DNA from: Nemopilema nomurai
Taxonomy: Eukaryota > Cnidaria > Scyphozoa > Rhizostomeae > Rhizostomatidae
DNA: 64,000 nt
Assembly: GCA_003864495.1 (NCBI GenBank)
Contig: ML133408.1
Span: forward strand, 1,495,006-1,559,005
Reading direction: 5' to 3'
Below the pieces are notes generated by a model. It was given only the letters and a program-made list of their open reading frames with translations, was not told where the DNA came from and made no database searches. The stretch's first letter is position 1. Every line of letters begins with the position of its first letter. Positions 1 through 25,420 of the stretch are shown one piece after another. The position numbers and the translations under genes were made by a program.

Positions 1-137
1 GTTATTATCATTATTATTATCATTCATTGGTTATTATCATTATTATTATCATTCATTGGTTATTATCATTCATTGGTTATTATCATTATTATTATCATTC
101 ATTGGTTACTATCATTATCATTATCCTTCTTTGGATG
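1..137. repeat. 29-bp minisatellite (TTATTATCATT-rich)
   Basis: A 29-bp unit is repeated at 1-29, 30-58 and 76-104, with a shortened 17-bp copy at 59-75 and a diverged copy from 105. The open frame across it is a by-product of the repeat. The rest of 138-630 holds no exon I can support; it must be intron of the receptor gene that continues at 631, because the paralogue at 19039 has a preceding exon that is not found here. Confidence 0.9.
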
Positions 138-630
138 ACACTCCTGTGGCAATCGCTAGGACGGGGGAGCCTCTTCCTTTCATCTTTTGGTAGAGCAAGC
201 TTTTCAAAGGCAAACTAGGTTGTTCTTTCATTCAGGAATTTGGTGTTTGTTGACATATCTTTGCGAAATTCCATTTTATGTGCGCAGCGAAAGTTCGCTT
301 TTGCTCCTGGAATCTTCTGGAGAAAGCTGTGACATAACGCTGATTGGTCAGTAGATATCCAATCACATTGTCTTCTCACAGCGTTGTGATGTTTCCTGAT
401 TCAAAAATGAATTCTCATTTAGTGATCTTGCCATCTTTGCATACTTTGGATTTATCAGGCGAAAAAGTATTGTCGGTATTGAAGCCTCTGTTTTTGCCAT
501 CTTCGTATCACACTTTTCGCTCTGTACATTGGTCAACGCAACAGAAGTAGATCTTGCATCGTAGCAATAGTGAGCCATTCTAAAAAGTAGCTTTGTTATT
601 TTCTATTTTTTTATGTGCTACATTATTTAG

Positions 631-3600
631 CCATCGATAATTACGTGCACCTGAGCTTTGCGATCGCTGGACGACGAGAGATGCCAAATTTCCTTGCGAA
701 GCCGTACGTTTCTCTGATTGACCACCCCGGGATGGTTCTGTACGTTCCGAAGCAAATTCTGGAAGAGCAAGTTGAAGAAATGCTGAATTCCATTATGGCA
801 CTTTGGCCTGTCTTCATTGTAAACTCCATCTTCATCCTACTGGCTGGTATTATCTTCTTTTTGCTGGTGAGTTTAGTTTCTGATGACACCAAATACTATT
901 ATTTAATAGCATGGGTAAGACCAAAGATGCCGCCTTTCGTGATACCAATGTTTCGAATGAAATGTTCTTTGATTCCTGGACTAAGCAACCATGAAGAACA
1001 ACTCCATCCTCGGCTCAGTGATTTCACAAACTCAAATAAGCATATATACATTCCAATTTTCATGCTAGCCCTTTATTAGATTAATTTCATCACTTATTCA
1101 ACTGTTTTGAAACCCAAGGAATCGCAGTTAAATAATTGGACGCAGAAATCATCTTTCACTTAAAAACCTTTAAATCCATTCTCATTTTTACAAAAAAATT
1201 ACGTTCGGTAGAAATTTATTTCTGTAGAAATAAATAGGGTTCAGAATTTTCTCTTTATCTTCAAAATGCAAGAAAGTTTACACATTGAGACGCGCTTCTA
1301 GATCAATGAAACGTTTTGGCAAAAGTGATAAAAAGTTTGAGTCTTAACGCTACTAGACGTTCGTTACTCAGATGATGTTGTTGTTGCGTTTGCATGTGAC
1401 TTGGCAAAGAAGATCATGGCCTCACAGGGAAGACGATAAATCAACACTAACATCATCATGATTTGAGAAACATTACCGTTGCCAAAGGTCTTTGTCATAG
1501 AAACTTCTCGCTAAAGCAACGATTCAGAACATTCTTCCTCTCACCTCTTCCCAAATGCAATGCTACATTTACGCAAGTCTTTAACCATTCGCCATAGACA
1601 CGCGAGGAGTCTTCGCCAAGTGGAAGATGTTTGTTTGTGTCTGGTTCCCTGAACGGAATGTACTGGGCCTATGTCACCATGTTCACCCATGGGTATGTGG
1701 TATTTATCATTTGCAATGAATCTTCGACAATTATTTGTATACTTCAATGCAGAAATGTCTATTTTCTCTTCTCACTAAATATCCTGCATTTGTAACAATA
1801 GATATGGTGACATTGTTCCGAAATCCAAGGCTTCTAGAATCTTCGCCATTGTATGGATCTTGGCAGGCCTTGTTACTTCGGCCATTCTTATTGGCGGAAT
1901 AAGCACAGCGTTGACGAGTACAAACAAGCCTAAGCAAATTGGCCTATACAACACAAAGGTAAGTACTTTCGTGCAATCTACAACATTATAATCACTCATC
2001 ATGTCTCCAACCGAAGCCAAAAACACACTAGGGATGACGTTGTCTTTAAAATATTAGTTCGCAAACAACTCCTCTTAGTAAAAATTGGCACTAAGTGTTC
2101 AAAGTTGTGTGGACATAGTTGTCCATGTGCTTATCGAATTGAACCAAAAAAGGATAAAAATAACAAGCTTAGTATTCTAGATCAGAACAGATAAACCTGG
2201 ATTCATTTTTAAAAAGGCCAAATTACACTCAAAACAAAGGCGCATATCCCATTGTAGAAGAAAATGTCACTAAAAAGCATATGCAAAAAAATAACAAAAA
2301 AGGTAGAAAAAACTAGTCAAGGGAAGAAACTTCAACCAAATTTAGTAACAATATCACGCATACTTACAAGAGAAATTATCAGCACAGACAATATTACAAC
2401 ACAAATCTTGAAAATCAGAAAAGGTATTACCGACTAAAGCACAGAAGATACATTTATATCACATCAATTATATGCAGGGCCAATTATATCACATCAATGA
2501 AGAAAAACTCAATATAAACACTTCTGTAGGAAGTCAATAATATTTGCTATAGCCTAACTTTTTGACACAAAACTGTCAAATCGAAACACACAAATTTTTT
2601 GGTAAGAAAAAGAAACCATGAACAAAAAAAATACTGCTGGTATGTTTATTTAAATTTTAGAACCGGTTTACATTATCTAAAGGAAGAAAAATATTTGGTG
2701 GAGAATCAGTTATTTTTGCAAGGCTATAGCCTTACTTTTTGACGTAGAACGGTCAAAACTGAAACACAATTATGGAAAAAGCACAGCTAGTTTGTTTTTA
2801 TAACGCGAAGAGCAAGCTACATCGATTTTAGGAAGAGAAGAGTTTCAACAGTAAATCAACTATTATTGAAATGTTAAGAATCTACTTTCTTACGAAAAAC
2901 GGGCAACACGTATTCCAAAAACACGTATTTCTTTGTAATTAAGGCAAATATGGTTAAACTTAAAACTCTGATGACGTGCTTATATGACTAGTGGAGCAAG
3001 TCCACATCAGAAAGAAAAAATGATTGAAAACAAGTCATTTTGGCAAGGCCTTCGCCTTTTCTGACGCGAAACGAGAATATATAAAACACGTATTTTTCGC
3101 AACTATGCCAAATGTGATCAGCTATGTGTTTACATTACCTCAAGAATACGTTTACATCAATTCTAGAAGGAAAATATGGTAACCAAAATGGTAAGAATTC
3201 TAACATTCGATACATTCGTTTCACAGCTTGCAGCCATAAACGGCTCTAAAGAAGAGGCAATTGGCATTTTGAGAAATGCTAAACTAAACACGGGTATGCC
3301 TAGTGTCCTACTTTTTAATGTTTCTTTTCTTTGGTGTTTTCTCCAAGGTTTTTCTGATGTAATGATCAATTTACGTCTTCTGCTTGTCTTGAATAACGAA
3401 TTACGTCTTTTTGTAGTGTCTCTCATAAGGTCTTATGCTTTCACCTTCTTATTTGTATCAAGAGCTTTTTGGTTCACTCACGTCTGGATCTTTCTGATTT
3501 GGTTGCTTCACCAATCTTTGATTACAAGCATTTAAAGTCACAGCTTTAGTCTAAACATATTTAATTGCTAATTTTAGACCGGAAGTATGAAAATGCAGAC

Positions 3601-4673
3601 CAGGTTTTTCAAGCACTGAAGGATCGAAGCGTTGGGGCGGCTCTTTTGGATGCATTTGTCGCCGCAGGGCGATCAGACTTATTCCAATCCGAAGTTGTCG
3701 TTGCTCAGGACATGATTAAGTATTCCTACACCTATGGGGTTGTACTTTCAGGAGCAATGGAGAACACTAAAGTGAATTTCAACAATTTCGTTTCTGATAA
3801 TCGTCAGTACATCACGCAAATGGTTGAGAAAACATTGCCTCAGCTTTCGGTAAGGATTCCAGTTTACCACACTGAAAAGCTGCTTTTAATTATCTGGTAG
3901 TAAATAGGTCCTGTCAAATAACATTTCTTGATTTCTAAAGCAAAATACCTGCTTAAGCTCTGTACAACCCTGTATTTGATTTATTCATTTGGCATCCATG
4001 TACGGGGAGCCAATGCGCTTGACTGCATTAGCTGATTACATTAGTTGGCTAAAAGGTTTTTCGGATATAACTTTGCTTTCATGATTGACAGGGAGCCTTT
4101 GGCAGTGCCAAGATGACGTCGCTCTTTGAGCCATCATCTCCAATCTTACAAAGTGTTCTGACTGCCTTGACTATTGTGTACCTGGTCCTTCTCGTCATTG
4201 GATCAGCCTACAGTTACAGCAAACACCGGGGAAGGCGGAAGATAGCCGATACGAAACTAGGTACGTTTTAAGATAGTGAAACAACTGTTTGATTTTGTGC
4301 ATGCTTTAAGCATTTCTTCAAATGGTGTGCATTGTAAGCACTTGGAGCTCTTGTGAAATTGAAAGCCATTCAGTGGGTTAATTAAAGGGGAAACGAATCT
4401 AAAATGCATGGATATTACTGCTGTAAGAATAATATTTGTCTTGTAGATGCAAAAGACAAAACGGAAGGCTGCGAGATGATTTGCGACGATTTTATTGGAA
4501 ATCTGGATAGGCTTTGCAGCCGACTGAATTCTTTAAGCGCACTTCATGATGCCAATGTGATTAAGATGAAACAAGTAAAGTCGGGTCAATCGAAGCAATC
4601 TCATGAACAGGGGCCGAGGAAGATTTTGGTAAAGGTAGTGAACAACGAGGATGATGACTCGGAAAAAGAATGA
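631..4673 (+). CDS. Glutamate-receptor-like channel with K+-type pore, copy 1 (3' part only)
   Basis: Exons read at 631-866, 1598-1692, 1802-1958, 3227-3293, 3578-3849, 4092-4260 and 4447-4673 (stop TGA); all phases join. In order they encode the end of ligand-binding lobe S1, membrane helix M1, a pore loop with the filter T-H-G-Y-G-D, helix M2, lobe S2 (beginning near N-G-S-K-E), a last membrane helix (about 4140-4215) and a basic, then acidic, cytoplasmic tail. Four internal exons are 95, 157, 67 and 272 nt long, exactly as in the copy at 19475-20736. The S1 end contains R-R-E followed by K-P-Y at the spacing of the agonist-binding Arg motif of ionotropic glutamate receptors. The 5' part (ectodomain and first half of S1) lies before base 1. 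Function as a ligand-gated, perhaps K+-selective, channel is inferred from this layout. Nothing visible marks it as a pseudogene. Confidence 0.8.
2460..3110. repeat. Degenerate intronic repeat
   Basis: Within the 1.27-kb intron 1959-3226, similar blocks recur near 2548, 2724 and 3045. Each has an AAGGCxTxxGCCTxxxTTTTTGAC-like core cut to variants, followed by a gaaacxcacaa-like segment. The copies differ at many positions, so this is an old repeat. No coding content is visible. Confidence 0.45.
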
Positions 4674-10200: not shown

Positions 10201-13200
10201 ATTGATCTAATTCGATGAATGGCCGGGGGCACTTAATACAACTGCCGAGGCGTGTAATGCAATAGCTAAGGCATTTAGTTCCGTTTTGATGCGTATTAAT
10301 GGAATTGCAAAGCCGAAACGGGTATTCGTGTAATTAAAACGTTCCGCTCCGTTCTCTTGTATAGAAACGTTCCGCTCCGTTCTCTTGTATAGAAACGTTC
10401 CGCTCCATTTTCTTTTAATGGAAACATAGCCAAAGATGCAGCCAGGGACGCATGGGAACGAGGTTTTGTTACCAAAATTTGTATTTCGTAAACTTTCAGT
10501 CTGAAAGATTTCCAATTCTAGTGTAAATTATCTACTATTTTAGAATGCAATGAAACCTTGAGCACGCTTGTAGACAATATAGGACAATTAGTTTTCGAAT
10601 AGCAAGCTTTGCTGATTCTTCGCTGATTCTGATTTTTTTCTTCGCATAGGAGCCACTTGCAGCGCTGTGACTGGTAAGCGATTCAATATTTAATTATACA
10701 TCAATTGTAAGGTAGTGGGAATTGTAAGAAAGTACAAAGTGGGAATTGTAAGAAAGTACAAAGTGGGAATTGTAAGAAAGTACAAAGTGGGAATTGTAAG
10801 AAAGTACAAAGTGGGAATTGTCTTGTCAGTTTATCTCGCATTTGGCTGTAGATTTTGCGATAGAAAAGGAATTAGAATGGTGGAATATTAGTTTGAGAAC
10901 AAATGAGCCCCCCTTCACTCTCTGCAATGATTTCAGGACATGCAGTTAGGTATTTTATATAAAATGCGGGAGCTGTACCCACTTTTTTTAGAGAAAACTG
11001 CAGCTTCTTTACTTAAGTATCTACATCGAAGGCTGTACAAAATAAACTGGAAGCATTGCAAACTAGCATACGCTCTCCATTTTAGATACTACAAAGAATA
11101 TGGGGCAGTACTTTTACTTCTCTTCACAAAAATACTGCTGGATCCCTGAGTCGTTTTCAGAAGGGAAAGTATTAAAGGACAGCAATGATCAGCCATGCTG
11201 CGACTTGTATAGGTTTGTCCATAAGTCAGACAGGACTATTTTTGTGACGTCGACTACAGAGGTTGGAGAGTTCTGTGTGCAAGTAGATGGAATGCCATAC
11301 AACCTTCATAGTGAGCTGGACACCCGGAAACCAAAACTAAGTAGAGGTACCATGCACCTACCATTTCGTGTCAAAAATTCCAATCTTGTGCTGATTATGC
11401 AAGTAGCATTTTTCAATTCAGCTTTCCCTTCTTCAGTACACTAAAAATGAAGAAATATCGAGTTTCAAGATTTTTATAATTCCTATTTATTATGTGTAAG
11501 CTATTGTTCTTGGACGTGTTACAATGCGATTTCGGCAAGGCCACATTCACGATTGCAGAGACCCGCGGCCCAAAAATATTATAAAATTTTATGCAGGTTA
11601 AGCCGAGTTTGTAACCAATCTTCTATACTATAGTTGAACTGCACAGTTTGCCAGTGCTGGTTTAGGGCTGTTTCTTTGGGCAGCTAAAGAGGGCAGCTAA
11701 AGAGGGCAGCTAATGAGTGCAAATAATGAGTGCAAATAATGAGTGCAAATAATGAGTGCAAATAATGTGAATACCTTCATCCTGTAGACTGTAAAGGATC
11801 GGCCTTTGTGTATGACGCAGAGTTTCATCTGTTGCGCGTCGAAGGGACTGACAGATGCCTATTTCGATCAGGCTCCGATGATATTACTGTCAATCGATGC
11901 GACGCTACCTCCAGCTATACGTACAGTTATGGTTAGAATTATTTTTTCTTCCTTGCATTACTCCAGTTTCACGTATTCTTTTCCATCTTGTTATCATTGT
12001 TTTAGCCAATCTTGATTGAACTTGCATTCAATCCTAGTACAAAACTCTTTACGGTCCTTCCAAAACCCAATGAGTCCACAAACGTAGAATTTCTTTGCAC
12101 CTTTGTTTCTGCAATTTCATGCCGTTTAGTATGTTGTGCTTCGATTGTCGCCTCCTTTGAGCTGTGTTTTTAGTAGCCATTTGTCGCCACTGAAGTAAAT
12201 TCATTACGTTCGCTATGTACTTCAACACCTATGTCCCTTTCCAAAACCGATTCTGCTTAAAAATACTTTTGTTTCCCTCTAGGTATTTGCAGTGACACAA
12301 ATACTTTTACAACAGGTGAGTTATAATCATTTTAAGCACAAAGAGTACATTCGGTTGTCACTTTGAAGTTTGGTAACGCGTCAAGACTCACTATTGTTAA
12401 ATAAAGGAATCTAGGATGAACATCATATTCATAAACCGAGACGCTGCAAACTAAGGATGGAAAAACAAAATGGAGATTTATCTGCATGTAATCATTTGTT
12501 CTGTCTTCCAGCCGCCTATTGAGCCCTCTAATAACTTTGATGACAACTTTTCTTTTATAAAAGTGAAAGAATGCAATCTACCATATAACATAATATGCAT
12601 TAACAATTTCAGTCCCTACTACAACCGTTACCAGTGAGCTTACAAGAACCAGCATTGAGAAAACACCCCCATCTACGACTTCTATACTGTCCACTACCAG
12701 TTCAGCAACAATTTCACTTGTCAGCACCATGATGACCCCCTCTGTCAGCACCATGATGACCCCCTCTGTCAGCACCATGATGACCCCCTCTGTCAGCACC
12801 ATGATGACCCCCTCTGTCAGCACCATGATGACCTCATCTGCCAGGGCCACGACCAGCTCATTTTCCAACATCGGTGCCAAAATCACTTCAATTGACAGCA
12901 ACACGGGCATGTCACCTGTTAACAAACTGATGACGTCATCTGGCAGCAGCGTGTCAACTTCATTGGCGAATACAACCGCTTCGATTTCCCGCCCATCGTC
13001 GCTGTTTCTTCCTGAAATGGTCATCAACATCTCACTACCACTGACAAACACTTCCACGTTAATGGAGATGACGCTTTTGCCAACTGGAAGGTCCGGTATG
13101 TCCACTTTTTGATCAACAAATGATAGTGTAACTTTGTGTCATTAAGTGTCATCAAGACGCAGATTTTTAACGTCTCTCGCAACTTTGCTGAATCCTTTGC

Positions 13201-16200
13201 AGCAATTGTTGAGATTTTGCTGGTATCAAGAGCTTTTGACAATATTTTACTCTTTCGATACTTCTTTTTAGTGACGCCTACTGCAACAGTCCAAGTGCTC
13301 CCCTTCCAGCCATTTTACGAAGGTGTGTACTACATTTCAAAATGTTTCTACATTATTTCTACCCTTCATTTTTAGAGTGGATTTCTATTCTAACTCTGAA
13401 ATAAGATTAATTGAGCCATTGACAAATGTACCAGTCATTATGGTACAACAGTTAAAAATTCTAACATCTGTAGGTGTCCCTATCGACGGAAATTGGAGCC
13501 AGTGGACCACATGGTCATCTTGCTCCGTTAACTGTGGAAGTGGGGTGCAAGAGAGAATCCGCTACTGTGACAACCCTGCCCCCAGAAATGGAGGCCTGGA
13601 ATGTGTTGGCGGTACTAAGGAAACATTAGCCTGCACGTTTTCCAAGTGTTCAGGGGCTGGGATGGCAACAGATACCCAAAGCTGCTTGGACTACTGTCAT
13701 AATTTAGGTACTTTTGACGACCATGAAATTTTCAAAACAGTTTTTTAACGTCTTCATTTAGTCAAAAAACATACGGCAACACGCTTATTCAGTAATTCAT
13801 TATTGTACTGACACCCTCTTAAAGTCAAGTTAAAATCATATGATATGTATATAAAGATATGATATGATATGATATGATATGATATGATATGATATGATAT
13901 GATATGATATGATATGATATGATATGATATGATATGATTGATATGATATGATATGATATGATATGATATTATATGATATGATATTATATGATATGATATG
14001 ATATGATATGATATGATTGATATGATATGATATGATATGATAAAGATAAAGATTCGAAAAACGAGTGATAACTTATAGCAGGTTGGTTCCCTCTGGAGGA
14101 CCATCTTTCACTTAGGTATCCTCTGTTCGCTTCTAAAACAGTCAGAAAAAGGTCTTGGAAACCTTAAAGAAAGCTTTTCATTCAAGGGTTGCAGTGTGAT
14201 TCGGCCATATTTACTGGAAATTCTATCCTCCCGTTTCTCGGGGCCAACTTTACCTGCTCATCAGATGACAGTTGCAAAGTGTGGACAGAAAGCTACGAGC
14301 CTGCAATCCACCTGAACGACAACCGATGCTGCGGCTACATCAAGATTCCGTCTTTCGTCAGTTGTGACGCAAAACCACCAAATGGCATCCGAAGACTTTG
14401 TCAGTGCTATTCAAAAGGTAGATCAATTCGAAATGTAGGGACAATTTGGAAGCTTACTTAGAGCCTAAGAATCTGTTTTGCTGCCATCATTCATATTTGT
14501 AACTTCGAAATAATTCTTCTAAAACGACCTCATTTTTCAGATGATGCGGGGTATTTTCCATGGACTCCTTGGTCATCGTGTTCTAGGACCTGCGGAGGGG
14601 GAAGCAAGTCACGCGCAAGAATGTGCCTCAATTACACCATGGCAGCACAAGTGTGCAGAGGTAGTTCCAGTGAAACTGTCAAATGCAACACGGTGAACTG
14701 TCCAGGTATGAAGCACTGGGATAGCTTGCATGGTGAGCCAATGGGTGGCGCCCGTTTACGATAAACAGACATCGACACCAAATCCGATTTCCAATCAAAC
14801 GTCACGCAAAGCATCATTCCAAATCATTCTCTTAGTGGGGCCCAAACTAAAAAAAGTATTTTGGTAGTTCTGGTGGAGTGGCTAATTGAAACCGCATCTT
14901 TTAATAGTAACTTCCTTAGTTATAAATTTAACATAAGACGTCTTTCCTTAGTTGCTGGAGGATTTGCACACTGGTCCGCCTGGACTTCATGCTCCAGTTC
15001 GTGCGGAGGAGGAACAAGAACGAGAAATCGAACGTGCTCAAACCCGTACCCAGCCTACGGAGGAGCATTATGTTATGGAAAGTACATCGAACATGAATCA
15101 TGCCGTCTCTGGTACTGCCCAGGTGAGCAATTTGTTGGAACCGACGTTCTGATCAAAGAGATCCTTCATTTATCACGGGAACACAGTAACAGTTCCCCGT
15201 ATGAAAAATTGACCCCTTTCCAAACCGGTTTTCTTATTTCCAACCGTTCTCAATGGCCATCATCAGTGTCTTCGCGTAAATTCTAGCTCTCTTCTCTGTC
15301 AGTTTAATATAATCGTTGTAACGTGCTTTGGAGGCATGCATGTATACTTCTGTGTATACTTCTGCCTTGTCAAAGACTTACTCTTGCAGTGAACGGCGGG
15401 TGGACGTCTTGGGGCTCCTGGGAACACTGTAACAAGCCTTGCAATAACGGAACAGTTACACGACGAAGAGCATGCGCCAATCCGGTTCCAATGTACAGCG
15501 GACAGCGTTGTCAGGGGGACAGTGAACAATCGATTCTGTGCAACTCAAGGCACTGTCCAAGTATGATGCTCTTGACATGATGGGCCAATACACAGCCTTT
15601 TATCGTTTGTAGCGATCAGCACTATCAATTATGTTGAATCTTCCTGCACGGGCTAAGTCCGCTTCATGCTTGCTTAATGCCATTTGCCTGAATGAATTAA
15701 AATTAGTGAATTCAAAATCTGTTGCATTCTGTCGATGTACACCAAGACTCATACATTTGAAGCTTTCCAAAAAAATTTGACGTATTTTCTATAGCAAAAT
15801 GTTCAACGATGTTTCAATGAACAACAATGTATTCTAAATCGAATTATTGACGAGTGCTGTGAAAACTATTAGATTTAGAAAAGAATTAATGATTTTGAAG
15901 CATGGTAGATTAATGGTATATAAATCATTGGCAGATTCGGAAGAAAATGGTCTCAAATCAGTTGGTCTAGGTAGAGCTAGAGCGCAAAATGTGCCATTTT
16001 TAGAAATGAATATCGCAGTAAGGCGTGCAGGGGATATGCAGTGCAAGGTGGCTCTGCTTTCACGAATGTGGTTGTTGCACAGATGTGGTTGTGGTTGTTG
16101 CTCTTCGGGTATGATCTGTTTTCCAAATGGCAGCTCCTCCGCCTTCTAGTTGAATATCTCCACCTTCTTGGCAAGTATGACATACCGAGCTTTTACTTCG

Positions 16201-19200
16201 CACAGATGTCACACTTCGTGTTCAAAATGTCGCCTTCGATGTATCATGGCAGAGTGAATACGAGGACTGGAATGGCATTGCCTTCTACAACTTTCAACAA
16301 AGAATTCAGTCCAATGTATGCTTCATCGCACTCTTTTCCTGTTCTTGTGTCTGAAAGTCTCAAAATCTGTCTTACCTATTTGTATTTCAATAATTTCTTG
16401 CCCATTATGGACTTCAATAATTTCTCAGTACCATACAACTTTCGGCCACGATCGATTTGATCTTGCTTTCAGACAGAGAAAATGATGCGCTATGGCTTTC
16501 TAGGCACCTTTCAGATGACACAACTCCACAGCTTGAGGTAAGGGACATTTATGCGAAAATAGATGGTAAATTGGGAAGAGTAAATAGATGGAAATATGAT
16601 ATCGATTTCTTGCAGGTTTTTTTGACGATGGAACCCAAAAGCAATTCAGGTGTGCTTCTAAGTTCATAGCATTTAGAATGAATCTTTTTTTGCAGGCAGG
16701 GAAGTGTAATTGCCTCGTTCACGCTATTCTTCAATGCACTTGACTCGTATCAAGCCCTGTTCCTAATGGATTCCATCAACGAAGATTACTTCCTTGGCAA
16801 AATGCCAATCGTAAGAGGCCAAACAGCAAATTTCTCATCAACAGTTGGCAAGTATCCCAAATCTAGTGGTGTCTATTGACACTTTCAAATATTGATTTGA
16901 ATCAAACTACTGGTAACTGTAACTGTATTGATAAGCGACGTAGTCCATTCCATAGGCTCACTACTGAGCAACAGAAGCCAGAAAACCTTAGATGGGTCGC
17001 AACTCAAACAGACTCAATATTCTTTTTAGTTCCATCGAGCCCTCCAGCAAATGTGACAGGTGTGAGCAGTGGCGCAAACTCCATTGATGTCTCTTGGGAC
17101 GAGGTTCCTCCCCTTGATCAAAATGGAGTGATTACTGGCTATCTGGTGTTTTACCGGGAATCGTCGGCCATAAATTACACAACAGCAGCAGCAATGCAAC
17201 TCAATATAACGATTAGCGGACTGGCAGCCGCAACAACCTATGCACTGCGAGTGCTTGCATACAACGCCAACGGAAATGGCGTTGCTAGTGATCTGATGAT
17301 GATAAGAACCGATGAGAAAGGTAAGTAGACCCAGTTGCTTACTGGTACCGTGACCCAAAGGCTTCTGCTTTGCTCTTGCTTCAATGCGCCTGTTCCTTTT
17401 GATTACTGTCCGTAGGCATTTTATCTGCTGATGACTGCACTTTTCAGCGCCAACCCTTCCACCCCAGTCGATCTCAGTGGTTCCAATGAGTGCGTTCTCT
17501 TTGTTTGTGGAGTGGACCCACCCCCCAACCAGCAGTTGGAATGGCATTATTGCAGGTTACAAAATCGACATCAAATCGGAGGATGGCAAGTACACCAAGT
17601 CAATCAGTGTTGATGGCGCTGTGGTTAACACGAATATTGCAGGATTGTCACCAGCCTCGTTATACGTGGTCGATGTATGTGCCTTCACTTCCGCTGGCAC
17701 TGGACCTTGCATCAGATCATTCAACAAGACATTCGTCAGCAGTGAGTTGTTCTTACTTAGCTCTGAGTTACAGCACTGAGTTCTTTCCCGAGTTTACCCA
17801 ATGACGACACTCAAACCCATTCCCCTCCGCACCATTACCATCTCGCTTTCTTCCAAAGCTCCGTCGATGGCCCCACCAAATGCGCTCTGCCGAAACAGAA
17901 CATCAACTGGAAGCATCCACGTGGACTACGATGTCGTGCCAATCGCATTCATTCACGGAGTACTGAAAGGATATCGAATCGAGTACCGCCTGGTGAGCGT
18001 CGGCCCGGAGTTGAGACCGCACAGTCCGGTCCAGGCGGTGACAGTGGGCCCATTCCACAGCCGGGCCACTCTGCAGAACCTGGAAGCGAACAGCGTCTAC
18101 GAGATTCGTGTCATGGCTGTCAATGAGCATGGCCCTGGACTCAAATCGCCACCCCTCTATGGAGGTGATTGTTCTCTAAGCGTTGTTATACAGGGTACTG
18201 TGTTGATTGTTTCTAGCAATTCTGTCTGGCCAATCATTTGTCTAGCCTTGCAATTGCTGAGATTGAAGTGTGATATAAAAACGAGGACATAATCCAAACC
18301 CCTGCTCCAGGATGCAACTTCGATTTTGGCTCTTTACAATTCCAATTGGATTTATAAGCTGTTAACGCAGATAATACTTTTGATGATCTTGAAACCTTAA
18401 AGTTGACAACGAAAAAAATTGTGACCAAAACCACCATATTTGAGTCTATATCGAAAGAATTTTCGTTGAAGAAACATGCTCCTGCCCAGAGGTAATCTAC
18501 ACAAACTACGCAACAAAAGAGCCGTACATATACTACGACGCTAAAGGGTACATGAAGGGTATATTCAGCATTCTGCTGCATAACATTACGTCATCAGTAT
18601 GCGGAAGCTGCAATGGACGCAAAAGCAGAATTGACTACTTCAATGATGGCAAGAATGGTTGGTCGGACAAGAGAAACTCTTTGCAGGTCACCAGGGGTGT
18701 GTCCTGCCTCCAATTAATTAGATCGATCTTCGGCATCTTAGAAATTTTATGTTAGAATTTAACGGCATTGAATCACGGCAAAAAGCGGCACTCCACTGGG
18801 AGTTTGTCTGTTTTCATATGATAAGTTGGTCTTCATTACAGCCAATCAGATTGGCGAAGCTATCATATTGCCTTGGCAATTTGGGTATACGCTTTCCATT
18901 TACCATGGCGCAATGCTCTAATCTAAGTTGTTGCCTAGGGAATTCTATACTTATATTATTAAGCGGGCCATTTATCCTTACTCATCTGCAGCTGTTATCC
19001 AGTGAATCGCAGCTACTGACAAATGACCTTTCTTCCAGCCATCGACGATTTTGTTCACATCAGCTTTGCCATACCCGGAAGCCAGGAGCTGCCAGTGGTT
19101 CTTGGAAAACCGTACATACCCCTTGTCGCTCATCCAGGAATGATCCTCTTCACTACGATGCCAACACAAGGAGAGCAAGTTAACAGCATGCTCAATGCAC

Positions 19201-22200
19201 TCTTTAGAATATGGCCCATCTTTGCCACCAACCTTGCCTTCATCCTTGTAGCCGGTATCATATTTTGGGCATTGGTAAGTAAACTTAATGTTATCATATA
19301 ATGTTCTGACTGAATTCATGAACAATATCTTGTATTCATTGAACAACACGCTGTTCTGGTGACTAAAAAAACTAAACCCAAGATCCCATGTGAAGTTCTA
19401 TTCGTTAATACATTAAGCATTGACTACATTTGTTGTGTTTCATTGCACTAAAACTTCACTTACGTTCTTCACAGACCTTCAAGGATACTCCGAAATACAA
19501 CTGCTGCAGTTTTTTCTCCGGCTCACTGAGAGGATCCTACTGGGCCTACGTCACCATCTTCACGCACGGGTAAGCTGTTGCCGTCAGTGAGTTGATGTTA
19601 CGCAACATTCAGAAAGGGTCAAAGGTCACTTTATCGTCACTACGCTGATTAAGCTGGAATTCATAATACCAAAGACCTTCTCAGTATATCCAAGAAGCAA
19701 TCCTCTTCGTCATCCTTCACTATAAGTAGCATTTCGAACTCTCTTAGAAACTTTAATTCAGTCCGGGTAAGCTTCCTTGTGAAAGCAGTGGAACGCGTGT
19801 AACGCAGCAAACAGGCATGAAATTACGTCATTGTCAATAGGTACGGTATTAACTTATTTTCCATTCCAAGCTATGGTGACATCACTCCAAACACAGTGGC
19901 ATCAAGGCTATTTGCAGTCGTCTGGATTCTGATCGGGTTGGTGACGTCAGCCATCTTGATTGGTGGAATGTCAACAGCATTGACGACAGCGAGTGTTCTA
20001 CCTGACGTCACACTGTACCGGACCACGGTAAACTGCCAGTCATAGGCGCCTTTTATAATTCGCGTTGTTGAAAAGCATTGCGCGGAATTTGTCGAAGGCT
20101 CTCATGATTACAGTAATGAAATGTCTTTTCCAAACAGGAAATGTTTATTGCAATAGTCACAGGCACTGCTTCTTTGGTCTTACACCCTATCAGTGCTAAG
20201 CTTTTCGTACTTCTAATTTTGCTGACCTCTGACCTCTTGCAGCTGGCTTCTCTGGATGGCTCCAAAGAAAGGCTTGTCGGGATATACAGAAATGCTATAG
20301 TCACCCCAGGTAGGACATTGCTTTGGTGTATGGTAAGCTCCTTCGTGAACTCTTGAAAAAGCACTTGCATCTTTATGAATGGCAGAGCATTGTAAATGCT
20401 TGAGGTACACTGAAACATCTTGAAAGCTAGGCTAACTACTTCGTGACTGTTGCTTTGCTTCTAGAAGCAAAATACGAGACGATAGAGGCGGTGTATCGTG
20501 CACTCAAAGACCGAAAAGTGGAAGCAGCGCTAGTAGATGCGTATGTCGTTGCAAGCCGACCGGATTTGTTTACGGACAAGGCGATCATCGCGCGCAAAAT
20601 GATTCAGTATTCATACACTTACGGAGTCGTCTTGTCAGGGGCCATGGAAAACACAAGAGCCAACGTCAGAAGCTATGTGTCTGAGATCCGCCAGTACATT
20701 GCACACATGATCGAGGAAACGACACCAAAGTTCGCTGTAAGCCGCCTTTCCTTATTCTGCTGAGTGTTTCACTTCAATTCTGTAAATGAATTAGAGCAAT
20801 TTAAGACAAGGAAGCAGGAGAGTAAACACAGTGCTACTGAGTTTGTTCCTTGACGACCCCCCACATCATGGCTGATTCTATTTAACCTAAAACAGCGACT
20901 TATAGTATGCAAAGTGTACAGTGTCCCAAGAATGCAAATCTGATTCCCTTTAAAGAACAGACCCCAGTAGTGGCCACAAGAGCTACTTTGTCGTCCTCAG
21001 AAGTGTTTCTCATTCCTTTTGTCGGCAACCACCTCGACATTGCATATTTCAATACAAATGACGTCATAGCTCAAGTGATATAGTGATGCTTATCCATTCT
21101 ACTCACTAAGGAAGGTGCAAACAAATAAATAAAGTCCTAATCTTGGCAAAATTGGACACAGATTTAATTCATAGAGTTGATGGACATCCTTGTTTTCAGT
21201 TCATTCAACCTCAGGTCGGTTTGTATCTTGCAAAACCCCCTAGAAGATGTTCATTAAACAGGAGCCTTGGTCACTTACCCCCTAAAAACTGACCCCTTCC
21301 TTAATGAATGTTCCTAAGAGAAACAAGAACAATAACTAGCGACAGGAAACGGGGATGCATTCACTTGAGAAAACTACACACACGAACGTATTGAATGAAT
21401 TAGTGCTTATAAAATGAAGAAGTTTAAAACACTTACGAGTGTGTCCTCAACAAGGCTACCAGGCTGCACTTGAATTCTCTAATTAGCCAAATGTGAGCTT
21501 TGAAGGAACATCATCGGCATCTTTTATCCCTAGGTCAACTCAAAAGTGGAGAACCCAGCTTCGCTTTTCGATCCATCGTCTCAATTTCTGAGACTCACGC
21601 TGGCAGTATTGACTGGGATGCTACTCCTTCTGCTGGTTGCAGGATGGGTATACAATTGTTGCAGAAAGCACTCAGCAAAGTGTCGCGGCAAGGGAAAAGG
21701 TCTGTAGGTTCTCGAGAAGGCTCCGCAGGTTCACTGCGCAGCGTTCTCAGGCGCCATCTATATTCAGTAGTGTTCTTAAGCTTCTTGAACTGCGACTTGT
21801 GTCAGAATGAAAGCCTGATCAAACGAATTTTCTTGAAGCTGAAGACATTGAGCCACAAGGGTTTGAAACTTGACAACTACAATATTCCGCATATTTGAGC
21901 CTCGGCTCTCGAGAGGATCTTCTCCCCCGCAAGGTTATTTAAGGGTCAGGAAAACAGAGATGAAAAGAGCTTTGACATCCCCAACAACACCATCAACATC
22001 AATCGTGCTCAGCCTCTTTCTGAATATGGATAGTCTTGCTGTAGCTGTTTTCTTAAACTCCTCACTACCTGCTCTTCCGCCCTTTTCATCATTTCCTGAT
22101 TTCTATTCTTCTTGAATTAAAACGACTGTAAGTAAGAGCTGAATATGGAATTGACTTTTTTGGAGGTGAAAGTCAAATGAAAACCATTGGTTTGGTTTTA

Positions 22201-22667
22201 GACATTCAAATCTGGCACAGTGCAAACAGCAAATTGACCATGTCTAAGTGATTTGCAGAAAAATAAGAACCAAAGATTCACGTTTGTTTGTTAGTTGAAA
22301 AATGAAATAAAACCCTCAAAACACGACATTACCATGTGTTTTCAAAAGGTTTTAAATGAAGAGTTTGTTTTTAGACCCAACTGAGGCCTTGTTCAAAGCA
22401 GCAGAGAATGGGATTCATAGTGACCTCGACAGTTTGTACAAAAGAATTGCAATGAAAGAAGAGGAACATTCGAAAAGGTTGCTCAAAGTCAAACGGCGAA
22501 AGAGGGGTCACGTTCACCCAACAATGTCGACAGCGATCTTGAATGGGTCACATGGGCAGGCGAATGGAGGAGGGACCGATGTCGTTTTACCATTCAACAA
22601 AGACGAACGCCTGATGAGGCGGCTTGATTTATTATTGTCAGAGGAAGCTAAGAAATCCAGAAAATAA
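7252..22667 (+). CDS. Multidomain receptor-channel: trefoil/TSP1/SEA/FN3 ectodomain with split ligand-binding domain and K+-type pore
   Basis: Exons: 7252-7254, 7435-7513, 7777-8001, 10006-10155, 10650-10673, 11086-11346, 11788-11931, 12283-12315, 12613-13095, 13272-13322, 13474-13707, 14187-14417, 14541-14705, 14952-15122, 15390-15560, 16206-16315, 16473-16565, 16616-16649, 16696-16847, 17030-17320, 17448-17741, 17859-18164, 18472-18696, 19039-19274, 19475-19569, 19871-20027, 20243-20309, 20465-20736, 21534-21699, 22374-22667 (TAA). About 1,740 residues. The start is the ATG directly before a GTATGT donor at 7255; joined to exon 2 it gives a good signal peptide (M-R-S-L-L-H-C-M-L-F-M-A). A short upstream ORF from 7222 ends at TGA 7237-7239. 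All junctions join in phase except 16315/16473. Topology and modules match an extracellular sensor joined to an ion channel; ligand and ion are inferred. Alternative 5' exons (e.g. one ending at 7699) are possible. Confidence 0.75.
9399..9656. repeat. 43-bp tandem repeat, six copies, in receptor intron
   Basis: Units start at 9399, 9442, 9485, 9528, 9571 and 9614 and are almost identical; the last has one G-to-A change. It lies in the 2-kb intron between exons 7777-8001 and 10006-10155. The rest of that intron holds an open frame at 8762-9247 that I judge non-coding. Confidence 0.95.
10339..10412. repeat. 28-bp tandem repeat, 2.6 copies, intronic
   Basis: The unit contains CGTTCCGCTCCGTTCTC and repeats at 10339 and 10367 with a partial third copy. 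It lies in the intron between 10155 and 10650. Confidence 0.85.
10715..10822. repeat. 24-bp tandem repeat, 4.5 copies, intronic
   Basis: The unit begins GTGGGAATTGTAAGAAAG and repeats at 10715, 10739, 10763 and 10787, with a partial copy to 10822. The copies are identical, so the array is young. It lies in the intron between exons 10650-10673 and 11086-11346. Confidence 0.95.
11678..11768. repeat. 13-bp tandem repeat, seven units of two types, intronic
   Basis: Three units of the GGGCAGCTAAAGA type pass into four units of the GTGCAAATAATGA type without a break in the 13-bp period, so the array has changed its unit by drift at one point. It ends 19 bases before the exon at 11788. Confidence 0.9.
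12613..13322 (+). other. Ser/Thr-rich mucin-like stalk of the receptor, with coding 24-bp repeats
   Basis: Exon 12613-13095 (plus short 13272-13322) encodes about 178 residues dominated by Ser, Thr, Met, Val and Pro. Bases 12720-12839 are five 24-bp repeats (last diverged) encoding S-T-M-M-T-P-S-V. The exon length is a multiple of three with phase-1 ends, and the repeat unit also keeps frame. Such stretches are usually densely O-glycosylated stalks that hold ligand-binding modules away from the membrane; that role is inferred. Confidence 0.75.
13474..15560 (+). other. TSP1 array of the receptor (four domains) with an intervening Cys-rich module
   Basis: TSP1 domains are encoded at 13474-13707, 14541-14705, 14952-15122 and 15390-15560; all but the first are single exons bounded by phase-1 introns, and the first exon carries extra residues after its TSP1. 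Each has the W-x-x-W core and six Cys. Domains 2 and 3 have the C-x-x-[ST]-C-G O-fucosylation motif; domains 1 (C-S-V-N-C-G) and 4 (C-N-K-P-C-N) lack it. Exon 14187-14417, with the end of the first exon, encodes a further Cys-rich module ending R-R-L-C-Q-C that I cannot name. TSP1 repeats bind matrix glycans and proteins in many adhesion receptors; the partner here is unknown. Confidence 0.9.
13857..14042. repeat. ATATG pentanucleotide microsatellite
   Basis: An almost unbroken (ATATG)n tract of about 185 bases with a few insertions (TATTATATG, TTGATATG). It lies in the intron 13708-14186. The long minus-strand frame across it is repeat-derived. Confidence 0.97.
16206..16847 (+). other. SEA domain of the receptor, with G-S-V-I motif
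   Basis: Exons 16206-16315, 16473-16565, 16616-16649 and 16696-16847 encode a SEA-type domain. The first strand is V-T-L-R-V-Q-N-V-A-F, a helix follows (F-Y-N-F-Q-Q-R-I), and the conserved R-Q-G-S-V-I-A-S-F strand is at about 16694-16722. Mucin-type SEA domains cleave themselves between G and S of this motif, so a non-covalent split of the ectodomain from the FN3/channel part is possible. The junction 16315/16473 does not join in phase as read (phase 0 to a 2-nt start), so an exon end here is wrong or a tiny exon is missed. The last exon ends with a GC donor (G|GCAAGT at 16848). Confidence 0.65.
17030..18164 (+). other. Three fibronectin type III domains of the receptor
   Basis: One exon each: 17030-17320, 17448-17741 and 17859-18164, all phase 1 at both ends. 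Each begins with a Pro-rich A-strand (P-S-S-P-P-A-N-V; A-P-T-L-P-P; S-M-A-P-P-N-A) and has the G-Y-x-[IV]-x-[YI] C-strand and L-x(5)-Y-x(5)-A F-strand (for example L-A-A-A-T-T-Y-A-L-R-V-L-A-Y-N). The first two show the expected early Trp. They probably act as spacers next to the ligand-binding domain. Confidence 0.92.
18472..21699 (+). other. Ligand-binding domain S1/S2 split by M1-pore-M2, plus final membrane helix
   Basis: S1 (18472-18696 and the start of 19039-19274) opens with P-Y-I-Y-Y-D-A-K-G-Y-M-K-G-I, the usual start of a periplasmic-binding-protein-like lobe. M1 is near 19200-19274. Exons 19475-19569 and 19871-20027 carry the pore helix, the filter T-H-G-Y-G-D, and M2 (G-L-V-T-S-A-I-L-I-G-G). 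S2 (20243-20736) opens with L-D-G-S-K-E and contains V-D-A-Y-V. Exon 21534-21699 carries the last membrane helix and a basic stop (C-C-R-K-H). This is the order of ionotropic glutamate receptors, but with a K+-channel signature as in bacterial GluR0. The 18696 donor (GG|GTGTGT) is chosen because it alone joins exon 19039 in phase. Confidence 0.8.
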
Positions 22668-23800
22668 TTGGATGATGCTTGCAACAAGGCTCGCGAAAAC
22701 TAAAGATTACGTCAGTTATTATGATCGCTTGAGTAGTGACCCTTTAAAGAAAACGTGTCGCAAATAGGTTGAGCACGGAAAATCGTTATAGACTTAGTAG
22801 AAATGAACAACACTCTAGACACTAGAAATGAATACAACTTGCATTTTTATATAAACACTTGTATAAACAGTAAGGGCCAGAAATGATTGCCAGCTTCATT
22901 CGCTCGCTTAACTTGGACAGCCTTAAAACATGGTTCACACCACGAGGGTGCTCCTTGGAGAGCACAGCCAGCGAAGACTTGAAGGATTCTTGGGGTGAGA
23001 AAGCAGAACGGCAGGCGTGACAAAATCAACTGCTGTTTCTTGAAATGGATAATCTGGCGTGCCAACACAGATTAAATACAATGCACCATTCGCAAGAAAG
23101 ATAGCAAGAACGTATTTGCATAACGTAGAAATTAGCTGCTGTTACCCAATATCATTGGTGTTTTCTTGTCATGATAGAGAAAAGAAAATGAAAATTTTCT
23201 TCCTTGTTTTGTTCGAAAAGCCTCCTGTACAAGGTCAAAAGTAGAGAACATTGTGTGGGGTTCCTAATATAAGAACAAAAGAACGCACGAAATAAAACAA
23301 AGAAGGAGAATTCCAGGTATAAGTGTAAAAAAGAGAAAGAAATAACTAAATTATGAGGAAAGGAGGAGTAAACTAGAGGATTTATAAGATAATTCTTGAT
23401 CGAAGAAAAAAGACAGTGGGAACGGTTTAAACATTGATTGACAAAGAAAGTTTGTTTCATAGTTCCAACAAAAATATATGAGCAGTAGTGTGTGACGCCT
23501 AAACTGATATCTTGGGCAAGAAAAACCTTTCTCGATGAAGTTGATAAAAACAAATCGAGGTAAGCATAACATACAATGTCAAAATATACAAACAAGTTTG
23601 TCTTCTCCACACAGTGACCAAATCCAAAATAGTTTATTAAAATATTTTCACTTGGCTGAGTAGATTTGATGAGAGCCAGCATAAAAAGTAATTACTAGCC
23701 GTATCATGCCAAGTACTTTGACCATCATCTCTAAATTTTGTCGACCGTAGAGGACCAGGACCTCGATTGCACGGAGGTAACCGATAAAGAGATTCCCGTT
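22668..23800. other. Convergent spacer between receptor and claudin-like gene
   Basis: The two genes end toward each other. The stretch is AT-rich and probably holds both 3' UTRs. A minus-strand AATAAA (TTTATT at 23633-23638) lies 163 bases past the claudin-like stop. The long minus-strand frame at 23152-23682 is Phe/Ser-rich and has no start context or splice partner, so I do not call it. Confidence 0.5.
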
Positions 23801-25420
23801 TCATTGCAATCCACTTGGGGAAACTGCAGTCTTCCTTAATGACCAAAAGGCAAAAATGCAACTTGAAATGTTCAAAATTAGCGAAGCTGCAACGAAATAG
23901 AAGGAGTAGCTGTACTCATCGCCAAAGTTGTGTCCTTGAGTGGCAAAAGTGATGAGGGCAAACATCTGAGCAGCTCCTGGGTAAGGAACAGGGGATCTAT
24001 GTGTTAGAATGAATGCTGGGTATAGAGTACATTGGTACAGGGTACATTGGTATAGGGCACATTGATACAGGGTACATTGGTATAGGGCGCATTGGTACAG
24101 AAAACATTGGTACAGGGTACATATCTAGGTACAAATGCATTGTGCTGCGGCTCGAGGCCTAGCCATGCGAAACTTATAGATGACATGGCTGACATTCAAG
24201 CAATCCTTCGCCCCAATTGGACACGGACATGTTCGTTGTACTCATCGGAAGCTGCAAAGTCCACCGCATATCTTGTCAAGCCCTCTTTCAGGTTTGAGGC
24301 ATCTGTGTTTATCTTGACACATCACTGAAACAAGCTACAAAACGAGACACGCCTAGAAGCAAGAAAAAGACACTTACCAGCAGCCACTTGAAAGAAAACG
24401 TAGCAGTTAATACGGAGGCGCACCAGATCCCTTGCAACAATGAAGATGCATGTCATGTGGATGAGTACGGATGCAAGTGGAAGGAGGGAAGTGATCATGA
24501 ACCAGTGAACCAGCTCTAGCTTTCCTGAAACAGGCAGAGAGACCTGGACACAGATTACGCAAGTCAGTTCAAAATGACAAGCATCGATCTACTGGTGACT
24601 GGCATTTAACGAAGAGACCAGATGACCACGGTAAAGATGATTCATGTGTGAAACAACGATTTCGCAAGACGGAGGCAACACAGATTCAGCCCTGCCTTTC
24701 AGCCACTGGGAGATGAAAAGGAGTGTTTTCCTTTGGGCAAGGGGGACTGTTATTAAGCCATTAATCCCTCCTTCCCCTCTCACTCCCCCCTCTCACTCCC
24801 CCCTCTCCCTCCCACAGACGGACAGCTAGAAAGCTGATGTCAACACGACATCGACTTGTTAACACGAACTTGCAATGCCAAATTTACAACCCTGTAGTGC
24901 TTGCATATTGCAATGGTGGGAGGAATTGAGAAAGCGCTTACAGTTTCTGTGCTATGCTTTGATCAATCACATGTTCTCATTATAGCATGATATAAAACTC
25001 ATTATAGCAACCAAAAAGAAAAGTCACCGATTGTCAATCTGGTCCTGAGCTATAGCAAACACACCTGAGGTGTAACGAGATTACAACCAACTTGGTTCTT
25101 CTTTCCATGGTTTCTCACCTGTTAAATATTTGTCAAGGCTAATAGCAACCTAGTATGGATGACATCTTGATTTACCTTGACTGCTATTGAATTCGAGCTC
25201 CATCAATCAAAGCATTTGACTTACCAGTCACCGACGCATCCTTCGGGTACTGTTCGCATGAAGTACCAGTGCACTTCCTATGCAAGCCAAAAGAAGTCGC
25301 GCCTGGCTGCTTTGGCGCGCGAACCCTCCAGGAGCTGGTGAACAAACAGGCCACTGAAAGGCACGTGCTCAAGAACACCGTAACGAATATGACTGGCAAA
25401 GTGCTCCTTGCCTGTGGCAT
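23801..25420 (-). CDS. Claudin/PMP22-like four-pass membrane protein
   Basis: Exons on the minus strand: 25420-25225, 24524-24378 and 23976-23801 (TGA); phases join and give 172 residues, the usual size for this superfamily. Membrane helices lie near residues 8-28 (L-P-V-I-F-V-T-V-F-L), 75-95, 110-125 (A-A-Q-M-F-A-L-I-T-F) and 135-158. The first extracellular loop has a Trp just after helix 1, then G-L-x-x-K-C and S-C, a variant of the W-G-L-W-C-C signature. Family members form or regulate cell junctions or associate with channels; which applies is unknown. I chose the Met at 25420 because it places helix 1 close to the N terminus. An in-frame Met at 25525 would add 35 residues read through a 20-bp repeat. 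TMEM47-like or EMP-like membership is possible. Confidence 0.72.
24018..24123. repeat. About 15-bp minisatellite in claudin-like intron
   Basis: Variants of GGTACATTGGTACAG (some GGTATAGGGCACATTG) repeat about seven times in the intron between exons 2 and 3 of the claudin-like gene. The apparent N-V-P-C-T/Y-T-repeat minus-strand frame is repeat-derived. Confidence 0.85.
24770..24820. repeat. Polypyrimidine tract
   Basis: A run of CTCACTCCCCCCT-type units on the plus strand lies inside intron 1 of the claudin-like gene. It could form non-B DNA, but no function is indicated. Confidence 0.7.

Follow-up and report, generated by a model that had tools for sequence, protein, structure and literature searches.

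The channel core of gene B

The window analysed here is a stretch of 64,000 nucleotides from the scyphozoan Nemopilema nomurai (assembly GCA_003864495.1, contig ML133408.1, positions 1,495,006 to 1,559,005), and the subject is a gene within it, here called gene B, whose product combines the layout of an ionotropic glutamate receptor (iGluR) with the selectivity filter of a K+ channel. The channel core consists of eight exons on the + strand within 18472-22667, all introns being GT-AG and of compatible phase, and the joined exons give a 503-residue open protein ending at TAA. Its order is S1 lobe, membrane helix M1, pore helix, T-H-G-Y-G-D-I-T-P, M2, S2 lobe, M4 and tail, as follows.

18472..18696, + strand: S1 lobe, first exon, with PYI...GIF motif and Cys cluster (exon model, family alignment)
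19039..19274, + strand: S1 lobe, second exon, and M1 helix, with Gln at the iGluR Arg place (exon model, alignment, hydropathy)
19475..19569, + strand: pore helix to T-H-G (exon model, family filter comparison)
19871..20027, + strand: selectivity filter YGDITP and M2 helix (Pfam Ion_trans_2 44.5 bits, core residues 145-223)
20243..20309, + strand: S2 lobe, first exon (exon model, profile comparison)
20465..20736, + strand: S2 lobe, second exon, with the Asp of LVDAY at the alpha-amino acid place (exon model, profile comparison, alignment)
21534..21699, + strand: M4 helix (exon model, hydropathy)
22375..22667, + strand: cytoplasmic tail and stop codon (phase-compatible exon; gene A, the tandem paralogue, aligns here through 4447-4586)

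Hydropathy gives three transmembrane stretches, at core residues 136-154, 199-217 and 372-390 (M1, M2 and M4), and the filter sits between the first two. It is itself interrupted by an intron (GG/C TAT GGT GAC). A spliced aligner returned the same internal junctions, an agreement that is partly circular since gene B was in the query or the profile. A sequence-only reading of this stretch had proposed the same coordinates, the order S1-M1-pore-M2-S2-final helix and the T-x-G-Y-G-D signature of K+ channels in the pore; the in-phase exons, the hydropathy, the alignment and the recurrence of T-x-GYGD in all 22 members of the family described below bear this out, and the glutamate-receptor layout with a K+-channel filter is confirmed as a real observation. 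In Pfam, the core exceeds the cut-offs of Ion_trans_2 (22.5 bits) and of Ion_trans (26.7 bits, cut-off 25), whereas Lig_chan reaches 20.3 bits, under its cut-off of 30.8.

The ectodomain

The position 18472, given in the same reading as the start of the feature, holds for the core but not for the gene, which extends upstream through Fn3 exons at 17030-18164 that lie in open frame with it. The following elements precede the channel.

11784..11906, + strand: stretch conserved with an open reading frame of gene A, possibly gene B ectodomain (tblastn E 2e-6)
13458..13655, + strand: thrombospondin type 1 (TSP1) domain 1 (Pfam TSP_1 52.9 bits, cut-off 21.6; counterpart in gene A)
14174..14422, + strand: Cys-rich module, also conserved in gene A and in the sequence preceding the C24 gene L023 (tblastn E 2e-20 and 3e-13)
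14543..14707, + strand: TSP1 domain 2 (Pfam TSP_1 46.2 bits)
14951..15124, + strand: TSP1 domain 3 (Pfam TSP_1 48.8 bits)
15383..15562, + strand: TSP1 domain 4 (Pfam TSP_1 37.1 bits)
16190..16858, + strand: multi-exon module between the TSP1 and Fn3 domains (phmmer matches at other family loci)
17030..17320, + strand: fibronectin type III (Fn3) domain 1, single exon (Pfam fn3 52.7 bits, cut-off 25; AG/GT ends, frame)
17448..17741, + strand: Fn3 domain 2, single exon (Pfam fn3 43.8 bits; splice ends, frame)
17859..18164, + strand: Fn3 domain 3, single exon (Pfam fn3 34.8 bits; in frame with exon 18472)

The three Fn3 exons and the eight core exons form one open frame of 800 codons whose only stop is at its end, and gene B therefore begins well upstream of 18472. 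Fn3 exons are also found upstream of S1 at 13 of the 22 family loci (genes A and B, L021-L030 and L040), with at least three matching frames at each, and these 13 loci constitute one clade of the pore tree (97/89). We take the Fn3 and channel exons as one gene. Four TSP1 domains lie upstream of gene A as well, and three, together with the Cys-rich module, upstream of L023 (on L042). The TSP1 exons are probably part of the same gene as the Fn3 and channel exons, and a common transcript is weakly indicated. The module at 16190..16858 has phmmer matches upstream of gene A and of nine other family loci (weakest E 0.003); it looks SEA-like by eye only, and the Pfam scan gives no SEA match. The Pfam scan of the open reading frame at 11766-11933 likewise gave no match.

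A block of 1476 bases holding the three Fn3 exons and their introns is 99.0% identical between the two paralogues (16693-18168 in gene B versus C42:1493146-1494621 in gene A, upstream of the window), while outside it the TSP1 stretch is 89.6% and the S1 DNA 68% identical. Because the identity of the Fn3 block is so far above that of the TSP1 and S1 stretches, it would reflect recent gene conversion or partial duplication.

A gene family in the Nemopilema nomurai assembly

The assembly around the window has 213 Mb (212.9 Mb) in 226 contigs, and across it the two pore exons give 47 exon matches, four of which lie in genes A and B. Twenty further loci were picked by hand, not at random, and with genes A and B make 22 models. 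The M1-pore-M2 core is present at all 20 picked loci. T-x-G-Y-G-D occurs in 22/22 models, and the residue after the first Thr varies, with TVGYGD in 17 of the 22, THG in four and TQG in one. In every model (22/22) the glycine codon of the filter is interrupted by an intron after the same base; the aligner worked from a family profile and could favour common junctions, but the breaks in the raw tblastn exon matches fall at roughly this point as well. None of the 22 models contains a stop codon, and 17 extend through S2 and M4; the model of L038 is without most of S1. In all six family pairs tested, the proportion of amino-acid-changing differences (pN) is below that of silent ones (pS), with pN/pS from 0.24 to 0.40 (genes A and B: pN 0.285, pS 0.778), which by this measure shows selection against amino-acid change in the family. 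A chance origin of the gene B core is excluded, since the pore core, the filter and the intron site are conserved, the models are free of stops and pN is below pS. On these comparisons gene B is one of at least 22 members of a gene family of this animal genome.

All 12 aligned members match Pfam Ion_trans_2, Ion_trans and Lig_chan, with E values of up to 0.1. Among three members scanned, two exceed the Lig_chan cut-off (L038 with 42.5 and L032 with 32.7 bits) and L035 stays below it at 28.2; a typed KcsA sequence, used as a control, had no Lig_chan match. The NCBIfam K+-channel models are also matched by 12/12 members, with gene B scoring under their cut-offs.

The tandem paralogue lies at the beginning of the window, with its first S1 exon (S1a) and its Fn3 and TSP1 exons upstream of the window.

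1..4586, + strand: gene A, tandem paralogue of gene B (spliced alignment, upstream domain matches)
631-866, + strand: gene A, S1b-M1 exon (spliced alignment, as for the lines below)
1598-1692, + strand: gene A, P exon
1802-1958, + strand: gene A, filter-M2 exon
3227-3293 and 3578-3849, + strand: gene A, S2 exons
4092-about 4250, + strand: gene A, M4 exon
4447-4586, + strand: gene A, tail exon

Just downstream of gene B, at 23637-24588 on the minus strand, there are hydrophobic open reading frames that by eye resemble exons of a small multi-pass membrane protein. Elsewhere in the assembly, L021 and L022 on C24 stand in opposite orientation; the first part of S1 and the second S2 exon are almost the same in both, and the sequence in between diverges more. 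Repeated short frames like the family pore stand on C60, at about 801-948 kb, and on C73, at about 114-325 kb, and the one C60 locus inspected, L019, reads TTAGYGDIAP; these repeats may be a further subfamily or another array of K+ channels. The pore-exon matches beyond the 22 modelled loci, those on C60 and C73 included, may be further members or other channels.

Relatives of the pore and lobes

Relatives outside the animal's own genome were sought in prokaryotes and viral contigs. A five-member family alignment run against a set of genomes from 84,980 prokaryote species found at least 411 relatives, of which 80 were kept, and among the matches listed the top ones are GluR0-like. Some of these align from S1 through S2 (L056, residues 4-338), and 43 of the 80 have the full S1-pore-S2 layout by a length rule and were used for hhalign. 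All four prokaryotic relatives scanned carry SBP_bac_3, Lig_chan and Ion_trans_2. The nearest solved relative of L044 is 2pyy, a bacterial homologue of ionotropic glutamate receptors. Against the 43, hhalign gave 100% for the whole core over 287 columns, 100% for the pore and 95.4% for S2 (score 49.4, reached by none of 150 column shuffles of the animal profile). For S1 it gave 42.3% with 21 members (score 26.6, again reached by 0/150 column shuffles), and the crossed control of animal S1 against bacterial S2 gave 0.1%. Judged from these profiles, the pore and S2 are homologous to those of bacterial GluR0-like proteins, and homology of S1 to the bacterial S1 is weakly indicated. The GluR0 comparison made in the sequence-only reading was in this sense the right one.

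The pore tree, built from 108 rows and 109 columns, was rooted at its midpoint, and its bootstrap had not fully converged. In it the 22 animal rows make up a single clade (99/93), which falls on the same side as the GluR0-like pores and those of conventional iGluRs. Grouping the family with 35 ordinary K+-channel rows was rejected (p-AU 0.007), the K+-channel group having been set after inspection of the tree, with two of 37 labelled rows (L066 and L073) dropped as they sat among GluR0-like rows. Two rows that are GluR0-like by the length rule, L121 and L088, are oddly placed. The family pore is thus of the glutamate-receptor kind, and the tree is compatible both with a separate GluR0-type lineage and with a side branch of animal iGluRs.

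Some further observations concern neighbouring sequence space. Most of 80 listed matches in viral contigs span the pore only; two loci, L123 and L124, have matches that reach beyond the pore into some flanking residues (91-254 in L124), and could be virus-carried channel genes or misassigned host contigs. On C19 (6228506-6373930) there are 17 Lig_chan matches in a row, and since they are mostly about 7-13 kb apart and several scores are equal, the row probably represents conventional iGluR genes in a tandem array. The closest solved relative of L007 is NMDA receptor subunit 1.

Binding site and selectivity filter

From the alignment and from iGluR structures, we assigned the place which we take to be that of the arginine holding the alpha-carboxylate of the ligand. 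Gene B has Gln there and gene A has Arg, and the other 19 members with a residue at this place have Lys (9), Ser (5), Gly (2) or one each of Ala, Met and Thr, so that Arg is kept in one of 21 members and replaced in 20. Of the 17 members with a residue at the acidic position of S2, 14 have Asp and 3 have Glu. This suggests a binding site that is partly kept and re-tooled, for which glutamate would not be a safe guess as ligand. A plain alpha-amino acid is doubtful in particular for gene B, because its alpha-carboxylate Arg is Gln, and its ligand is probably not one held by the usual Arg. The glutamate-receptor comparison made at the outset was right in kind, but an amino-acid ligand is less likely than it implied. 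As to the ion, TVGYG stands in 17 of the 22 filters and the His of gene B is unusual, and K+ selectivity is therefore likelier for the family than for gene B.

Comparison with known channels

GluR0 of Synechocystis is a bacterial glutamate receptor with the K+ signature. With GluR0 and bacterial GluR0-like proteins, including 2pyy, the family shares the S1-M1-P-M2-S2 order, the GYGD filter and homologous pore and S2 sequences; unlike GluR0, it has M4 (core residues 372-390), a tail, Fn3 domains at 13 of the 22 loci and a Cys cluster in S1, and has lost the binding-site Arg in 20 of 21 members. The metazoan iGluR clades (AKDF, NMDA, epsilon and lambda) share the topology, M4 included, and a weak Lig_chan similarity, but the family differs from them in its filter, which is GYGD in 22/22 instead of Q/R/N-type, in keeping the S1 Arg in only 1/21, in the ectodomain and, for gene B, in lacking a SYTANLAAF-type motif. 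The 2TM and 6TM K+ channels (MthK, Kv) share the filter and the pore helix and are the best PDB sequence matches; the family pore is in contrast flanked by S1 and S2 lobes, and its grouping with ordinary bacterial K+ channels is the one rejected above.

The sequence-only reading had stated that the animal families it listed, from AMPA to lambda, do not have G-Y-G; that contrast stands, but the list omitted AvGluR1 of the rotifer Adineta vaga, which according to two papers that cite it is an animal iGluR with the K+ signature, selective for K+ over Na+ (PMC12226733, PMC11479355), four-pass in layout (PMC11479355) and activated by amino acids (PMC12226733). Compared by this description only, it shares with the family the animal origin, the four-pass iGluR layout and the K+ signature filter; the description, as far as available, mentions no TSP1/Fn3 ectodomain, which gene B has. 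Among the eight PDB matches of the S1-S2 profile at E up to 10, no rotifer receptor is named. We recognised no published animal family with such a channel core and a TSP1/Fn3 ectodomain in the literature searched, which covered few subscription papers. Within that literature, K+-signature receptors as such are known (GluR0, AvGluR1), and the features that appear new are the TSP1/Fn3 ectodomain, the large size of the family and the loss of the usual amino-acid-binding Arg.

Proposed function and alternatives

The explanation that we consider probable is that gene B encodes adhesion-type domains leading into a GluR0-type receptor channel that is gated by ligand or contact and passes K+. The chain would comprise four TSP1 domains, a conserved unnamed module, three Fn3 domains and then the channel, in which a two-lobed ligand-binding domain (S1 and S2) is split by M1, a K+-type pore loop and M2, and is followed by M4 and the tail. 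The pore would be made by four subunits and would open when the lobes close or the ectodomain is pulled; K+ passing through the T-x-G-Y-G-D filter would then hyperpolarise the cell. The tetramer, the ligand, the gating, the K+ selectivity and the inhibitory role of the gene B product are inferred.

Several results weigh against this explanation. No Fn3 exon was found at L031-L039 (9/22) in the fetched stretches searched, some of which have little upstream sequence, and five models (L031, L032, L033, L036 and L037) stop short of S2. With 16 members the S1 comparison reached only 15%, and as the crossed control of animal S2 against bacterial S1 gave 20.9% (28 columns), the S1 figure is weak by itself. 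The S1-S2 part alone, in 12 members, had no Pfam match to SBP_bac_3 or Lig_chan-Glu_bd, and its sole receptor match in the PDB is 2pyy at E 1.1. To these are added the low Lig_chan score of gene B, the His of its filter where most members carry Val, and AlphaFold2 models of the single S2 exon (20467-20736), which were all-helical and uninformative (the best had a mean pLDDT of 70, the other four 46-48), were discarded, and give a clamshell no support. The pore tree adds a last point, taken up with the second alternative below.

One alternative is that the protein acts as an adhesion or matrix receptor, with contact or tension gating the channel and S1-S2 ligand binding having been lost. The TSP1 and Fn3 ectodomain and the replacement of the alpha-carboxylate Arg in 20 of 21 members speak for it; we nevertheless regard it as unlikely, as the S2 acidic residue is kept, the core is under constraint (pN below pS) and the nine loci where no Fn3 exon was found still keep the channel.

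A further alternative, which seems to us quite unlikely, is that the family branched off from within the conventional animal iGluRs and either retained a K+-type filter or regained one. The family has an M4, as do eukaryotic iGluRs, Lig_chan is matched in 12/12 members, and a clade of the family with six conventional iGluR pores of the same genome was not rejected (p-AU 0.252). In the best tree, however, the family is a clade of its own, and the conventional iGluR pores sit apart from it on a long branch among GluR0-like pores. The SYTANLAAF-type motif is a feature of iGluRs, and the end of M2 in gene B, ILIGGMSTALTT, is without it; a like stretch is found in L001.

That two adjacent genes lie here, one for an Fn3/TSP1 adhesion protein and, from near 18472, one for a channel downstream of it, is highly improbable: the junction from 18164 to 18472 is read from sequence alone, but at 13 of 22 loci S1 has Fn3 exons ahead of it, in gene B they share one open frame with S1, and the 18472 frame has no ATG from the upstream stop to the acceptor.

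Significance

The wider picture would be an expanded animal family of inhibitory K+-selective receptor channels outside the named metazoan iGluR clades, part of which couples an adhesion ectodomain and a non-amino-acid or contact signal to a K+ pore; we put this forward tentatively, at slightly less than an even chance. According to one review, the pore loop of iGluRs originated from that of a K+ channel, and one animal, a rotifer, has a K+-selective receptor (PMC11479355). A family of at least 22 genes with a K+ filter would be a second and far larger animal case, and would make it easier to test how animal iGluRs originated. If functional, it would add a directly ligand- or contact-gated class of K+ channel to the means of inhibition in animals and, if true, a class of fast inhibitory receptors that uses cation rather than chloride flow. 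The TSP1/Fn3 ectodomain would link cell adhesion with membrane potential, and the layout of the family suggests that in this jellyfish chemical or contact signals may quiet a cell through the exit of K+.

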